NCBI GenBank assembly: GCA_015062115.1
Contig: SUVG01000004.1
Location: 1 to 64,000 of the forward strand
DNA: 64,000 nt
Direction: 5' to 3'
Source: Elusimicrobium sp.
GTDB lineage: Bacteria; Elusimicrobiota; Elusimicrobia; Elusimicrobiales; Elusimicrobiaceae
The notes under the pieces are model-generated. The model worked only from the letters and a program-made list of their open reading frames with translations. It searched no databases and had not been told where the DNA came from. How positions within the stretch are numbered: the stretch's first letter is position 1; each line of letters begins with the position of its first letter. Positions 15,615 through 58,206 of this stretch are shown here, one piece after another. The position numbers were made by a program, and so were the translations under genes.

Positions 15615-17258
15615 ATGAGAAAGTATCTCCTGCTTGTGCTTTTAAGTGGATTGGCGGTTTCTTCCTTTGCTCAGCGTAAGTCCGCCGCACCCGGGGTATC
15701 TTCTTCTATTCGGGTTTCTACCGCGGTGGAGGCTCCGCAGTCCAATATTGATTTATTAAAACAATCTTTACAGTCTTCCGGTCAAGTAGCCGGTGTGGCC
15801 GAAAATGCGCCGGCTTCTTCCGCTAAGCCTTCTCCTGCCACTACACAACCTGCTGTTTCGCCTGCTTCCGCGTCCGCTTCTGCCGCCTCTGCGGTTCGTG
15901 CGGTTGTTTCGACCCCGAACACATTGGATATGCCCCTTGAAATGGGCGGTTCGGTGCAAAGTGTGCAAACGACCGTAGAACCCGTTAAAAAGCAACTTTC
16001 ACCCGAGGCGGCTAAACGGGTAGAACAAGCCAAACAAAAACGCGAGGCGGGCCAAAAAAAGGCAAAAAAGCCTACTCCTACGCCGTTAGAGAAGGATATC
16101 GAGCGTTCTAATTCCCTTTTGCCTCCTTCCCAACAGGTTCCTGCCGCCGAACCGGAAGAAGATTCTGCCGAAGAGGCCGCCGCCGATGCGGAATTGGAAT
16201 ATGCGGTTCGTATGTTGGAAAAATCGCGCGAGGCCATGGCCGCGGCTGATCGGTATATCCCGCCGTCTGCCGCCCAAAATAAACCGAACAAAGTTCCCGC
16301 GCCCAACAAGAAATTTAACCCCAATGCCTTCCGCCCCGGGGTTACTTGGCAAGCCAGTAAAAGCACTCATTTTGATATCTACACGCAAAAACGTTCTTCG
16401 GGCATCAGTTCTTCCAATATGTCCATGACTTTTGAGTCTTCTTACCAAACCTTGCGGAGATTTATTCCGTGGATGATGTCCGGTCGGGTGCGTGTGTTTG
16501 TGTACCAAGACCACCAATCTTACCTGCGCCACGAGCCCAATGCCAAAGCTTGGACGCGCGCGCTTGCGTATCCTACCCGCGGAGAAATTGTGGTATATGA
16601 CGAGCCGGGCAAAAACCAAGAATTAAAAGAAGTTTTTACCCACGAACTTACCCACATTTTTACACAGCAATTTTTTGATAAACATAAAACCGGGCGTATT
16701 ATGACACCTACTTGGCTGGACGAAGGTTTGGCTGTTTTACTGGAAGACCAAGCCTATAACGGCATGAAGGGTGGCCCGTGGGCACAAGATTTTAAGACCC
16801 TTAATTTCCAGCGTGACCCCTCCGGTCAGGTAGCCAGCTTCGGTTCCACCTCCATGTTCGGCCCTTCCAAAGGCAAACGCCTTACTTCCAAACGAGCCGG
16901 TAAACCCGTTTATTTTACCTCGTTTGAAGCCTTTATGCAGGAAGGTTCCTTAGAGGCGGCCGAAGGACGCGGAAAAACACAAGATTGGTATTTTCAAGCC
17001 TACACAATGGTGCGTTTCCTGTTGAATCCGGCTGGGGGGGCTTCTCCTTCCAACCGTATGCAATTTGAACAGTTTACGCGTCTTTTGTCCCAAGGCGAAG
17101 CCGTGCGCGATCCTTCTACCGGGTTTTTGGTAAAAGATTCAAAAGGTAAAACGGTTTACGAGCCTTACTCGGTAGAAAAAGCACTGGGAAAAGCCTACCG
17201 TTACGGAACAATCGCCAATTTTGAAGATAATTTCTGGCGATGGGCCGGCCGCGAATAA
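15615..17258 (+). CDS. Secreted zincin-like peptidase (gluzincin, MA-type), last gene of the pilus operon
   Basis: 547 aa with a signal peptide (1-19, SSFAQ). A low-complexity Ala/Pro/Ser/Glu region (about 20-235) is followed by a peptidase-like domain. THELTHIF (about 342-349) supplies HExxH, and WLDEGLAVLLED about 25 residues later supplies the third ligand Glu, as in M1/MA-like gluzincins. It starts 9 bp after the last pilin and ends at a strong terminator, so it is probably part of the operon. It could process pilins or surface substrates. Activity is inferred from motifs only. Confidence 0.75.
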   Translation: MRKYLLLVLLSGLAVSSFAQRKSAAPGVSSSIRVSTAVEAPQSNIDLLKQSLQSSGQVAGVAENAPASSAKPSPATTQPAVSPASASASAASAVRAVVSTPNTLDMPLEMGGSVQSVQTTVEPVKKQLSPEAAKRVEQAKQKREAGQKKAKKPTPTPLEKDIERSNSLLPPSQQVPAAEPEEDSAEEAAADAELEYAVRMLEKSREAMAAADRYIPPSAAQNKPNKVPAPNKKFNPNAFRPGVTWQASKSTHFDIYTQKRSSGISSSNMSMTFESSYQTLRRFIPWMMSGRVRVFVYQDHQSYLRHEPNAKAWTRALAYPTRGEIVVYDEPGKNQELKEVFTHELTHIFTQQFFDKHKTGRIMTPTWLDEGLAVLLEDQAYNGMKGGPWAQDFKTLNFQRDPSGQVASFGSTSMFGPSKGKRLTSKRAGKPVYFTSFEAFMQEGSLEAAEGRGKTQDWYFQAYTMVRFLLNPAGGASPSNRMQFEQFTRLLSQGEAVRDPSTGFLVKDSKGKTVYEPYSVEKALGKAYRYGTIANFEDNFWRWAGRE

Positions 17259-17505: not shown

Positions 17506-18303
17506 TTATTTTTTGCAGGTATGGGGTACGCCGTGGAATCTTTTATCAACGGTTAACTCAGCACCGCATTTATCACAATGGGTGGCGGGCATTTTAACTT
17601 CCGTGTTATCTTTTGCTACCGGGGTGGCAGAGCAAAGACCGATTCCGTGGGTAGCATCGCAGTGTTGTCCGGGTTCGGTAATGGCTTGGCCGCATCTGTG
17701 GCAAACGGGAGCTTTTTCTTCTGCATTTGCTTGCGGGCAGGTATGGGGTACACCATGGAATCTTTCATCAACGGTTAACTCAGCACCGCATTTATTGCAA
17801 TGAGTGGCCGGCATTTCTACTTCCGTGCTATCATCTTCTTCCGGGGTGGCAGAGCAGAGGGCAACATGGCCGGTGGCACTGCAGTGTTGGTGGTCTTCAA
17901 CGATTTCTTCCCCACATCTGTAACAATAGGATTTCTCTTCTTTGGTTTGTTTGCAATAATGTTTGCAACCATGGAATCTTTCGTCGTCAATGGTTAATTT
18001 TTCTCCGCATTTGGGGCAGTGGGTAATGTTGGCATTTGTATATACTACGCCTTCTTGTTCAGGGGTAGGCGAACATAAACCCGTATGATTTTTTGCAGAA
18101 CAGTGTTGTCCTGCATGGGTAATTTCTTGCCCACACGCATGGCAAACCGCTTTTTTGGCTTCATCGGCTTTTTTCTTGGCTTCCATTGCTTTTTGAGCTA
18201 CGGCACGCACTACTCCGACCGGAAGAGCGGGGGATACCAGTTGGGCCTTAACGGTTACACAGGCCACTAACAATAAAACTAAAACTAAAGTAATTCTTTT
18301 CAT
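17506..18303 (-). CDS. Secreted protein built of three tandem Cys/His zinc-ribbon-like repeats
   Basis: 265 aa with a signal peptide (about 1-20, VTVKAQ). From residue 52 on it consists of three repeats of about 70 residues. Each runs CxxCGxxI...QHCxxxxHxxLCSxTP...HCxKCGxxLTxDxRFHGxxHxC, so each has two CxxC knuckles plus conserved His and Cys. Repeats 2 and 3 are the closest pair. Cytoplasmic zinc ribbons usually carry such knuckles; here they are exported, so the Cys may bind metal or form disulfides in the periplasm. It is 21 bp downstream of the next minus-strand gene and probably shares its promoter. No family recognised. Confidence 0.75.
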   Translation of the reverse strand: MKRITLVLVLLLVACVTVKAQLVSPALPVGVVRAVAQKAMEAKKKADEAKKAVCHACGQEITHAGQHCSAKNHTGLCSPTPEQEGVVYTNANITHCPKCGEKLTIDDERFHGCKHYCKQTKEEKSYCYRCGEEIVEDHQHCSATGHVALCSATPEEDDSTEVEMPATHCNKCGAELTVDERFHGVPHTCPQANAEEKAPVCHRCGQAITEPGQHCDATHGIGLCSATPVAKDNTEVKMPATHCDKCGAELTVDKRFHGVPHTCKK

Positions 18304-18324: not shown

Positions 18325-18951
18325 TTAAAAACCTTCTTCTCCCGTAAGACCACCCATCAAGACGGTGGAGATAAGGGAAACTTCTTCTTCGGTTAATTTG
18401 CCGGTTTCAGTCAAGTAGCCCAAAGAAGTCATGAAGGCAGAGAGTTTAACGATTTCTTGGCTGATATTGTTGGGAGTAAGTTGGATATAGTTAAGTTTTG
18501 TATCTAAATCTAATTGTCCCATACCAATCAACAACGCAACTGTTCTTTGGAGTTGTTCCGGGCCGGCTTCGTTAATTTTGTTGAAATCCAAGGATTGAAT
18601 AATCGTTTCGGTTAAGGTATTCAAGCCCGCTTCTAAAGCATTTTCAATCGGTACCAAGGTGGCTTCTAATTCTTCATCGGAAACTTCTTCTTCATTTTGA
18701 ATTTTTACCAAAAAGGATCCCAAGCGTTTCAAGGGATCAGCCACATGATTTTCCATCGCTTGAATAATGTCTTTATCGGAAGCGGTGGTTTTTTTGTCCG
18801 TTATGCGTTGGGAAAATTCTTGAAAGAAAACACCAACGGCTTGTTGGGTTTCCGTTTGAATAATTTGTTCTTCACTAATAGGGCTTTGTGCAAAAGCCAT
18901 AGTAGCGGTTAAGGCGGCTACGACGGTGATAACTAGTTTTTTCAGGTTCAT
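18325..18951 (-). CDS. Secreted alpha-helical protein of unknown function
   Basis: 208 aa with a clear signal peptide (1-21, TMAFAQS). The rest is predicted mostly helical and acidic, without Cys or recognisable motifs. Ribosome site AGGAGG lies 7 nt upstream. First gene of a two-gene unit with the zinc-ribbon-repeat protein. Its promoter region carries the tandem RGGYC-N4-GRCCY element (19009-19050), shared with other exported-protein genes in the window. Function unknown. Confidence 0.7.
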   Translation of the reverse strand: MNLKKLVITVVAALTATMAFAQSPISEEQIIQTETQQAVGVFFQEFSQRITDKKTTASDKDIIQAMENHVADPLKRLGSFLVKIQNEEEVSDEELEATLVPIENALEAGLNTLTETIIQSLDFNKINEAGPEQLQRTVALLIGMGQLDLDTKLNYIQLTPNNISQEIVKLSAFMTSLGYLTETGKLTEEEVSLISTVLMGGLTGEEGF

Positions 18952-19008: not shown

Positions 19009-19050
19009 CCAATAAGTCTTTAGACCTAATTGCCGTAGAAAAAAGACCTA
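19009..19050 (-). promoter_or_regulatory. Tandem RGGYC-N4-GRCCY element, site A, with promoter
   Basis: On the minus strand TAGGTCTTTT and, 22 bp further down, TAGGTCTAAAGACTTATTGG. The second copy runs into a TTGGTT -35-like box. TATGAT follows after exactly 17 bp (18984-18989 on plus coordinates). The gene start at 18951 is about 58 bp downstream. Confidence 0.6.
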
Positions 19051-19084
19051 TAAAAATTATGGGCCCTTTTCGTTCAAAATGTAC

Positions 19085-19090
19085 TACAAT
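19085..19090 (+). promoter_or_regulatory. -10 box of clpP, spacing suggests a leaderless mRNA
   Basis: TACAAT ends 7 nt before the clpP ATG (19098). No Shine-Dalgarno is present. Transcription would start at or next to the start codon. No good -35 seen. Confidence 0.45.
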
Positions 19091-19097
19091 ATACAAT

Positions 19098-19685
19098 ATG
19101 ATTATACCTACTATTATTGAAAAAAACGTCGGTTATGATATTTTTTCCCGTCTGCTTAAAGATCGCATCATCTTTGTAGGCGGCCGCGAAGGCGAGGTGG
19201 ACACCGCCAGTGCCAATATGATTATTGCCCAACTTTTGTACTTGGACGCGGAAGACTCCAACCGGGAAATCAACCTCTACATCAACTCTCCCGGCGGTTT
19301 GGTAACGGCCGGCCTTGCCATCTACGATACCATGCAATTTATCAAAGCCCCCATTACTACCATTTGTATGGGCCAGGCCATGAGTTTCGGCGCCGTGTTG
19401 TTGGCCGCCGGTTCCAAAGGGCGCCGCTATGCGCTGCCGCATTCCCGCATTATGATTCACCAACCCCTCATTTGGGGCGGGGGGATTTCCGGTCAAGTAA
19501 CGGATATCGAAATTGAAGCCCGCGAACTGCGCGACAGCAAAGAACACTTGCTTGATATCTTAGCCAAACACACCGGCCAAGATAAGGAAAAAATCCGTCA
19601 AGACAGCGAACGCAACTATTATATGTCCGCTCAAGAAGCCAAAGAATACGGATTGATCGACGAAGTGTTGGAACTGAAAAAATAG
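19098..19685 (+). CDS. clpP: ATP-dependent Clp protease proteolytic subunit ClpP (Asn in place of catalytic Asp)
   Basis: 195 aa from ATG 19098; an upstream in-frame ATG at 19059 would add 13 residues that do not fit ClpP. The S14 fold is clear: [18 protein letters not shown] with nucleophile Ser96, and SRIMIHQP with His121. Aligned to E. coli ClpP, the catalytic Asp171 (TERDRF) corresponds to SERNYY, so the third residue is Asn173. Listeria ClpP1 also has Asn there and is catalytically unusual. ClpP forms a tetradecamer fed by ClpX or ClpA-type unfoldases; none is encoded nearby. Stand-alone transcript with its own terminator. Confidence 0.95.
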
Positions 19686-38310: not shown

Positions 38311-38335
38311 ATGATTGACGATTTGTTTATTTAAT

Positions 38336-40696
38336 ATGAAAAAAATTACCTTATTGTTTTTACTACTCTTTATTTATCCGTCCCTTGCTTTTTCTTGGGG
38401 GATTATGGAGCCTTGTTTGGCCCGCGTCAGCCAAGATAAGCGTTGTTTTGTTGAAAAATTATCGCGTGCGGGGAATTATCCTTGCATTTCCGTTAAGTTG
38501 GAAGGGCCCCGGGTGGAAGGAGTTTCCGCGCAGGAATTAAAACAAATTTCTCAGGTTGCCCTTAAAGATTTAAGCGCAGCCTTCCATCGTTGGTTTGGCC
38601 CGGTTCGTTCCCAAATTGTTCAGGCGGGCCGTGCCGAAGAGTTTGCAGATTTTTTGAACATTTATCCCAATGGGGTGCGGGTATTTTTAGAAGATAAAAA
38701 CACTCCTTCTAACCCGCAATGCTTAAATCTGGCCCTTTATCTTTCCAGCGGGGGAGTTTCTACATGTGCTGATGCCAATGCTTTGGAAAACAGAATCCGT
38801 TGGTACACCTTTAATTATCGTTTCCACGACGGAGGCGGTTATTCTTTATCGTCTAGGGGGTGTCCTCCGGAATCTGTAGTAACGCATGAGGTGGGGCACT
38901 TGATGGGCTTGGCAGATTTGTATTGGAATAAATTAAATCATGATTCCAATATCACCCAAGAATTTTCGCTCCTGTCCGTGGGGATTTCTACTTACGAAAT
39001 GGAAAAATATTCCGTCATGACTACCGCCCAAGCAAATTATTCCGTGCGTTGTGATGATTTGGACGGCATTATCAATATGTGGGATGTGTTGCTTGCCAAA
39101 CAAGGGAAAACTTCTCCCCGTTGGGAAAAAGGCTGGACAAGTTTCTGCCCGGCATACCAAGCCAAAAACTTTCGCTATGCCTACGGGCAACCCTACCGCA
39201 GCGAGGAAGAAAAAAACACCAATAAACGCAGAATAGAGGCCATCAATTGGTTCGAAAAAGGCGCTTTGGAGTGGCAGAAAGAGTATGAGCGCTTGGGAGA
39301 CGAAATCGCGCGTTTAAATAAAAAATTGGAAACAGCCTCCGAACAAGGTGTTTTAACCACGCTTGATTTAATGGATTCGGCCCGTATGAATTATTTAGCG
39401 GAACGTCAAAAGAAAGTCGGTATCATTTATTCCAGCATGAACGAGATGGATGATAATGATAAGATAGGTTTTTTGGGTGTGTACGACAAAGTCCAAGCCC
39501 TTATAGCGCAAGACCCGGATATTGCCCCCGGTAAACCCTTATACAACCCGGAAAAATTGGCCCGGGCCACCCCTTACGAATACCATTTGTATGCAGCAGT
39601 AGAGAAGAAAAAACATGTGTGTCTGTCTTGCGGGAAAGAAATTGAACCGGACGAAGAACTTTCCTCTGTTTCCAGAGGGCATGTGTTCTATTTCCACGAG
39701 GATTGCCCCAGACGGGCCAAAGCTTCTCAATCTCAGGAATATATCCGCAAATACCGTTACGACCGCGAGCAAACAAAGGCTCCTATACTTTCGTATGCGG
39801 AATTGTATAAAAAAGCGTTGCGGGAAGGGATAGACTTTCAAGTGGCTTCTATGTCTGCTTCTCCCGCTTTATCCATGGTGTCGGTTCCTCCGTTAGAAGA
39901 GGTGGCCAAATCGGCCGCGGTGCCGGATATAGATGTATTTGCCACTCATTCCGCTAAAGAAACATTGCCGCCTGCTGCAAGTACGCCCGTTAAGGGGGGG
40001 CTTTCTGCAAAGCAGGTTTCTGCGCCTAAAGATACCAGACAGCAACCGTCTACTAAACCGCAAGGAAAACCGAAGGTGTTGCCTGCTGCGCCGGAATCTA
40101 AACCGGTGCGTAAAACACCCGCCACCCGCCCGGAATCTTCGAGTAAAGCAAAAGCAAAATGCTATGTGTGCGGGAAAGAAATGGAAGAGGGAGCCTATCA
40201 CTCTTTCGCGCAAAGTAAACATGTTCATAAAAAGGGGGAGTGTGCCTTGCGCGCTTTTACCCAGTATCATAAAACTGATGCGGAAAGTTTAGCCCGCTAC
40301 GAAGGATTTTATTTCTTACATGTGCCGCAAGATGTCGTGCAGGCTAAGGCTGATATGCGTTCTTTGGGAATTACGGTGGCCGATGTTCGAAATTATATTT
40401 CCCAACAACAGGAAACTCAAAATCGCTTATTGCAAGAACAACAGGCTTCTCGCCGTGCCGAAAGCGAGCAGGCCTCCTTGCGGGAAAAGTGCCGTTTTTA
40501 TATGAATGTTTCTCAAGCAGATGTGGATCTTTTTAAGCAGGAAAACAAACGCGCCCTAACCAAAGCGGAAAATAAAAAATCTGCAGGGGGAGTGCTGAGT
40601 AAAAAACAGGAACGCTTGTTGCGGCAGTATAACCAACTGTTGGAAAATTTCAAAATAACCCAACAATGTGCCGTTTTGGATAAAAAAACGAAGTAA
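38336..40696 (+). CDS. Large secreted zincin-like metalloprotease with two Cys-rich treble-clef-like modules
   Basis: 786 aa from ATG 38336. Signal peptide about 1-20 (LAFSWG). VVTHEVGHLMGLADLYW (about 181-197) is HExxHxxGxxD, a metzincin/zincin-type zinc site. Helical segments with coiled-coil character follow at about 295-400. Two modules, CLSCGKEIEPDEEL...HEDC (about 425-455) and CYVCGKEMEEGAYH...GEC (about 608-640), share CxxCG(K/Q)E(I/M) with the exported zinc-ribbon-repeat protein at 17506. A Lys/Pro/Ser linker separates them and a helical tail ends the protein. Substrate unknown. Confidence 0.78.
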   Translation: MKKITLLFLLLFIYPSLAFSWGIMEPCLARVSQDKRCFVEKLSRAGNYPCISVKLEGPRVEGVSAQELKQISQVALKDLSAAFHRWFGPVRSQIVQAGRAEEFADFLNIYPNGVRVFLEDKNTPSNPQCLNLALYLSSGGVSTCADANALENRIRWYTFNYRFHDGGGYSLSSRGCPPESVVTHEVGHLMGLADLYWNKLNHDSNITQEFSLLSVGISTYEMEKYSVMTTAQANYSVRCDDLDGIINMWDVLLAKQGKTSPRWEKGWTSFCPAYQAKNFRYAYGQPYRSEEEKNTNKRRIEAINWFEKGALEWQKEYERLGDEIARLNKKLETASEQGVLTTLDLMDSARMNYLAERQKKVGIIYSSMNEMDDNDKIGFLGVYDKVQALIAQDPDIAPGKPLYNPEKLARATPYEYHLYAAVEKKKHVCLSCGKEIEPDEELSSVSRGHVFYFHEDCPRRAKASQSQEYIRKYRYDREQTKAPILSYAELYKKALREGIDFQVASMSASPALSMVSVPPLEEVAKSAAVPDIDVFATHSAKETLPPAASTPVKGGLSAKQVSAPKDTRQQPSTKPQGKPKVLPAAPESKPVRKTPATRPESSSKAKAKCYVCGKEMEEGAYHSFAQSKHVHKKGECALRAFTQYHKTDAESLARYEGFYFLHVPQDVVQAKADMRSLGITVADVRNYISQQQETQNRLLQEQQASRRAESEQASLREKCRFYMNVSQADVDLFKQENKRALTKAENKKSAGGVLSKKQERLLRQYNQLLENFKITQQCAVLDKKTK

Positions 40697-43812: not shown

Positions 43813-43822
43813 ATAAGCAAAA

Positions 43823-43890
43823 TAGGTCTTTTGAAGGAATAGAAAATAGGTCTAAAGGCCCTTGTATCCGCGAAGTAAATTGAGTAACAT
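43823..43890 (+). promoter_or_regulatory. Tandem RGGYC-N4-GRCCY element, site C, with promoter
   Basis: TAGGTCTTTTGAAGG at 43823 and TAGGTCTAAAGGCCCTTG at 43847-43864, 24 bp apart. The second copy ends in TTGTAT (-35-like, 43862-43867), with TAACAT (43885-43890) 17 bp later. The lipoprotein ATG at 43929 is 65 bp beyond the element. Confidence 0.6.
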
Positions 43891-51974: not shown

Positions 51975-52013
51975 AAAGGGTCAAAAGACCTATATGCGTA
52001 TAGGCCTTAGGAC
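51975..52013 (-). promoter_or_regulatory. Tandem RGGYC-N4-GRCCY element, site D
   Basis: On the minus strand TAGGTCTTTTGACCCTTT (51992-51975), preceded by GTCCTAAGGCCTA (52013-52001). A TATAAT follows about 18 bp after the -35 position. The gene start at 51913 is 62 bp downstream. Confidence 0.6.
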
Positions 52014-52680: not shown

Positions 52681-52746
52681 ATTCTAACGTTGCCCGGTGT
52701 TTTCGGCAAGGGTCTTTGGGCCTAGGGCGCGGGTAGGTCTTAGCGG
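52681..52746 (-). promoter_or_regulatory. Tandem RGGYC-N4-GRCCY element, site E, with promoter
   Basis: On the minus strand CTAGGCCCAAAGACCCTTG (52725-52707), preceded by GCTAAGACCTACCC. TTGCCG (-35-like) and TAGAAT (52686-52681) are exactly 17 bp apart. The gene start at 52637 is about 68 bp from the element. Confidence 0.6.
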
Positions 52747-58165: not shown

Positions 58166-58206
58166 TCAAAAGACCTAACACAAAATAGGCCCTTTGACCC
58201 TTGTTA
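58166..58206 (+). promoter_or_regulatory. Tandem RGGYC-N4-GRCCY element, site G
   Basis: TCAAAAGACCTA (58166-58177) and TAGGCCCTTTGACCCTTG (58186-58203), then TTGTTA. No strong -10 is evident at 17 bp. The gene ATG is at 58265, 61 bp beyond the element. Confidence 0.6.

Follow-up and report, generated by a model that had tools for sequence, protein, structure and literature searches.

Zinc-ribbon families, in which two CxxC-type knuckles form one metal site, are mostly cytoplasmic, and MqsA antitoxins add a C-terminal HTH to a finger of the YgiT type. Zinc-finger arrays are usually regarded as intracellular. Among eukaryotic scaffolds, LIM-only and PINCH-type proteins are built from small zinc modules in tandem and lack an enzyme domain. 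Here we describe a predicted exported finger-array protein encoded in a 64,000-nt stretch of an Elusimicrobium sp. contig (SUVG01000004.1, positions 1 to 64,000; hereafter the window), whose genus is most probably Candidatus Avelusimicrobium.

The ORF at 17506..18303 (minus strand, ATG start) encodes 265 aa, in which a signal peptide and then a helix rich in Ala and Lys precede three tandem alpha-beta units. It is a real gene, since homologues were found in 31 further species and the dN/dS values, at 0.14-0.6, are below 1. The signal peptide, read from the sequence as MKRITLVLVLLLVACVTVKA followed by Q, spans residues 1-20 (18244..18303, minus strand) with predicted cleavage at VKA-Q. The structural model has a helix at residues 2-21, and complete relatives keep an N-terminal signal-like segment that usually ends in AFA-Q. 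The signal peptide claimed from the sequence alone, read here as cleavable, is borne out by conservation across the family. Residues 12-15 (LVAC) resemble a lipobox, but by inspection LVAC occurs in this member only and there is no invariant lipobox Cys family-wide. The lipoprotein reading was rejected, and because most relatives have AxA-Q sites, we consider cleavage by signal peptidase I more likely. The Ala/Lys-rich helix, predicted by AlphaFold2 and matched by a similar segment in relatives, covers residues 29-50 (18154..18219, minus strand).

The units begin at residues 54, 127 and 201, a period of 73-74 residues, and 28 of their 75 aligned columns are invariant, in agreement with the three tandem Cys/His repeats first noticed; units 2 and 3 share 70% identity. 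Each unit comprises two distinct single-site fingers, alpha and beta, with one CxxC apiece. Alpha has the spacing C-x2-C-x10-C-x8-C (more fully, C-x2-CG-x2-I-x(4)-QHC-x-A-x(5)-LC), and beta the pattern C-x2-C...H-x-C (more fully, C-x2-CG-x(2)-LT-x-DE-R-F/Y-HG-x2-H-x-C). On the minus strand, the alpha fingers lie at 18073..18144 (C54-C77), 17854..17925 (C127-C150) and 17632..17703 (C201-C224), and the beta fingers at 17953..18018 (C96-C117), 17737..17799 (C169-C189) and 17515..17577 (C243-C263). In 25 units drawn from many species, alpha is invariant at C3, C6, Q15, H16, C17, A19 and C26 and beta at C45, C48, G49, D55, H59, G60, H63 and C65. Ten of these are of ligand type (alpha, C,C,H,C,C; beta, C,C,H,H,C), and invariance elsewhere is rare. 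The metal-ligand-like pattern proposed earlier is supported. The accompanying estimate of about eight ligands per unit holds as a count, with about four per finger, but not for every residue named: neither the H lying between QHC and LCS nor that of HCxKCG is conserved outside this protein.

This arrangement differs from that of a zinc ribbon. The protein exceeded the cut-off for PF13240 (Zn_Ribbon_1; 32.8 versus 25 bits, summed over three stretches), with the match covering positions 1-15 of 23, and for TIGR03831 (YgiT-type finger; 21.8 versus 20.2), with the match covering positions 25-43 of 46 only. It fell below the cut-offs for PF12773 (DZR; 25.5 versus 27.3) and for TIGR03830, which includes the HTH (19.2 versus 61.8 bits). 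The likeness to Zn_Ribbon_1, DZR and the YgiT-type finger lies in the CPxCG-type knuckle; the second CxxC of the ribbon families is replaced here by C..C or H-x-C. Given that the Pfam and NCBIfam models cover one CxxCG knuckle and that both fingers are without a second CxxC, we rejected a zinc-ribbon identity, and the two CxxC knuckles of the YgiT/MqsA type are likewise not found. The description of each unit as a double-knuckle zinc ribbon is therefore replaced by one of two different single-site fingers. The repeat had also been held to belong to no settled family, and the profile search, named beforehand as the refuting test, placed it in none.

The comparison with LIM proteins is one of organisation. 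Like LIM-only and PINCH-type proteins, the finger arrays have tandem small modules, here with zinc as the predicted metal, no enzyme domain and a proposed scaffold role. Unlike them, the arrays are predicted to be exported, are bacterial, do not fit the LIM spacing (C-x2-C-x16-23-H-x2-C-x2-C-x2-C-x16-21-C-x2-C/H/D) and have no significant sequence or fold match. LIM was absent from the Pfam scan lists for the protein, and LIM, GATA and PHD chains headed an insignificant Foldseek list (E at least 0.4). Foldseek searches with the full-length and unit models gave no significant fold match and none hinting at a binding function, and a PDB sequence search with the protein gave no match. The finger array may work like LIM-only arrays, an analogy that carries no claim of membership. 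The metal-free model of an alpha-beta unit, which includes alpha finger 2 and beta finger 2, had a mean pLDDT of 90.6 with hardly any regular secondary structure, as would be typical of metal-organised folds. The full-length AlphaFold2 model had a pTM of 0.25, which we read as suggestive of beads on a string.

The CxxCG knuckle had been said to recur in a zincin at 38336, and this was not supported, given that the repeat profile found only the three units of the 17506-18303 ORF genome-wide (E <= 0.001). The zincin, an M6-like protein at 38315-40696 (TIGR03296, below cut-off), resembles the finger-array protein in being exported and in having CxxCGKE knuckles (CLSCGKEI and CYVCGKEM). It differs in the second half of its two CxxC...H..C fingers, where a distant H-x(3-6)-C weakly resembles DUF2175, and it was missed by the repeat profile. 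The zincin is an instance of another finger type outside the cytoplasm.

A scan of 84,980 species genomes with a single sequence found no relative, and therefore a family alignment was used for searching. A genome-contig scan with this alignment gave matches only in Elusimicrobiales or in MAG contigs. The search of Elusimicrobiota proposed by the sequence-only reading, carried out with a profile built from 17 units, showed the family to be present in 32 of 66 genomes of the genus to which the window belongs, with no convincing match outside that genus in 341 Elusimicrobiota genomes. Two matches were marginal. One, in another Elusimicrobiota family (L113; E 3e-5), is an 81-aa two-finger protein that resembles alpha (CxxCGK(E)...GGIC.NSP) and matches the repeat profile weakly; unlike the finger family it is of cytoplasmic type, without a signal peptide and without a beta finger. 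The other (L114) is a single ordinary CxxC match close to a contig end. A mobile origin was rejected for lack of any family match in plasmids, phages and viral contigs.

Within the genus, the family is modular, with alpha, beta, gamma and delta fingers that vary in order and number. The gamma finger of relatives reads CxxCGxxITDExxxxKCPxDPDVxC and their C-terminal delta module CIYCGEEI..Q.C..CTVNCPDCGxNLRDPKNL..DGxHRCRFK. Complete members are 130-453 residues long, and among the shortest is one that lies at a contig end; two or three gene copies occur in tandem in L027, L031, L035-L038 and L105. A GGDPHN/GGDPHAN linker peptide recurs in L027, L030, L035-L038, L095, L105 and L107 and is absent from the 17506-18303 member; it may stand at either terminus or between fingers and, among the ORFs examined, was found only in the finger family.

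Conserved Cys residues in an exported protein could instead be paired, as in small Cys-rich secreted domains, giving a metal-free extracellular repeat protein stabilised by disulfides. Four Cys are present in each alpha and each gamma finger, as pairing would allow, and the pilins of the genus have an even Cys count in 32 of 33 cases (these are orthologues and so not independent). Because of the even counts, disulfides probably form somehow in exported proteins of the genus, and exported Cys would probably pair. DsbB and VKOR went undetected in the 66 genus genomes, and a DsbA-family match above cut-off was found in one of the 66 (G081:C24:24982-25593, L093), which speaks against disulfides. 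We nevertheless dropped as decisive the argument that no Dsb system means a reduced, zinc-bound protein, given the even Cys counts of the pilins. Three other observations, together with the invariant ligand-type residues, favour metal. The beta finger has three Cys and an invariant His; the mature Cys count is odd in 15 of 39 complete members, a result not expected from folding through disulfides alone; and among 92 alpha-type matches, in all of which CxxC is kept, Cys serves as the fourth ligand in 88 and gives way to His in four, a swap that is classical for zinc sites. On these grounds the protein probably holds zinc rather than disulfides, and we regard the disulfide-stabilised alternative as quite unlikely.

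We tentatively favour, at somewhat short of even confidence, a zinc-stabilised binding or scaffold array that would reside either within the envelope or outside the cell. The protein, which carries a signal peptide, would be exported by Sec. Each module of ~21-25 residues would then be organised by a single bound metal ion, most likely Zn(II), with Cys4 as the ligand set in alpha and Cys3His in beta. As beads on a string, the array could keep its metal sites fixed while surfaces and copy number change, and multivalent binding or scaffolding would be its most likely job.

The array may work with a second exported protein encoded just upstream. At 18325..18951, on the same strand (minus) and 21 bp upstream of the finger gene, lies a gene for a predicted exported, Cys-free helical protein of 208 aa, and the two genes form a probable operon. 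An exported Cys-free helical protein is usually encoded upstream of the finger gene in relatives. The homology of the window's protein to this partner family is weak (E 1.2e-7 over the full length, 8e-4 for the mature part; 15.8 bits versus 7.6 bits for the best of 500 shuffles). In most relatives the finger gene adjoins clpP, often divergent, and lon. On the other side of the locus are a conserved exported Peptidase_MA-like protein, found in the window at 15615-17258, and a pilin/assembly cluster, which in the window includes a secretin (PF00263) and a PilM-like gene. Several finger-less species have an empty site (L073-L075, L077, L078, L090 and L091), where clpP and the peptidase flank either the partner alone or nothing. 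In other species a similar partner-finger cassette was found at a second site, between uvrA/ybaK-like and RDD-like genes (L026, L032). We also noted that clpP seems leaderless, with a TACAAT -10-like element ~7 nt before its ATG (window about 19090-19110) that is conserved in related species.

Upstream of the partner-finger operon, at 19017..19051 (minus strand), are two copies of a promoter box (ATAGGTCTTTT and TTAGGTCTAAAGAC). Genome-wide, the TAGGYCYWWWGRCCC box occurs 60-104 bp upstream of genes that mostly encode exported proteins, which supports the putative regulon proposed for this locus. The pattern TAGGYCYWWWGRCYC gave 17 genome sites versus one for the reversed control, and most of the 17 have a script-called ORF start 60-104 bp downstream; nearly all of these ORFs encode predicted exported proteins, and one encodes a membrane sensor kinase. 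With a related pattern there were 10 genome sites versus none for the control. Among the finger genes, 24 of 39 have a box within 1.3 kb upstream, versus 1.2% of shuffles, mostly 55-131 bp before the gene or near the head of the cassette. The window's sites are at 19017-19051, 43822-43861, 51978-51993, 52710-52724 and 58166-58200, with further loci at L125-L141. We observed that the box takes the form TAGGYCYWWWGRCCC(TTG), often with an inverted partial copy upstream. The sensor histidine kinase, L135, is itself a box target and possibly an autoregulated controller. Another box-bearing gene (L116:287-1438) encodes a 384-aa protein that, oddly for one predicted to be exported, contains a response-regulator receiver domain (PF00072, 33.3 bits). 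The finger array would be expressed under this box in common with other exported proteins.

The neighbourhood raises the possibility that the array is instead an extracytoplasmic zinc buffer, storing six metal ions and delivering them to exported zinc peptidases made nearby, namely the Peptidase_MA-like protein at 15615-17258 and an M20 peptidase of the same regulon. The six predicted sites per protein, the conserved exported zincin that adjoins the finger locus and the presence of the same promoter box at the M20 peptidase gene are all consistent with such a role. The zincin, however, also occurs in species without the finger protein, and the sites form part of conserved finger folds, not of loose Cys/His runs. 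Moreover, none of the box-bearing genes found was recognised as coding for a zinc transporter (most have no Pfam match); this led us to reject zinc-uptake regulation as the meaning of the box and adds to the reasons for considering the buffer unlikely.

The evolution of the family also counts in favour of the binding or scaffold array. In 23 of 29 cases a unit groups with others of its own protein (shuffle mean 0.75, maximum 8), a sign of repeated local duplication or homogenisation (concerted evolution), and in L106 two units are identical. Compared with lon (0.01-0.07) and the peptidase (0.04-0.06), dN/dS of the finger genes is high at 0.14-0.6, with dN inflated by shuffled modules; by these estimates the family is fast-changing yet constrained by purifying selection. 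A secreted factor directed at the host or at rival microbes and diversified by an arms race would account for the fast evolution, tandem copies, module shuffling and patchy presence, and would suit the gut habitat described for Ca. Avelusimicrobium (PMC8035907). With no dN/dS above 1 and no enzymatic or targeting domain, we judge such a factor quite unlikely.

A further, unlikely possibility is that minimal zinc-held fingers are the recognition modules of a display system, at the surface or secreted, that is specific to the genus. Between species the modules would undergo expansion, shuffling and homogenisation, much as a repertoire of antigens or adhesins does. If true, this would be a use of tandem zinc-finger arrays outside the cytoplasm that is undescribed in the literature searched. 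An exported, modular and fast-changing family confined to one uncultivated-rich gut genus would show metal-stabilised mini-domains serving outside the cytoplasm, an environment in which metals and thiols are difficult to retain. The finger family also offers a handle on a promoter-box regulon of uncharacterised exported proteins in Elusimicrobiota.
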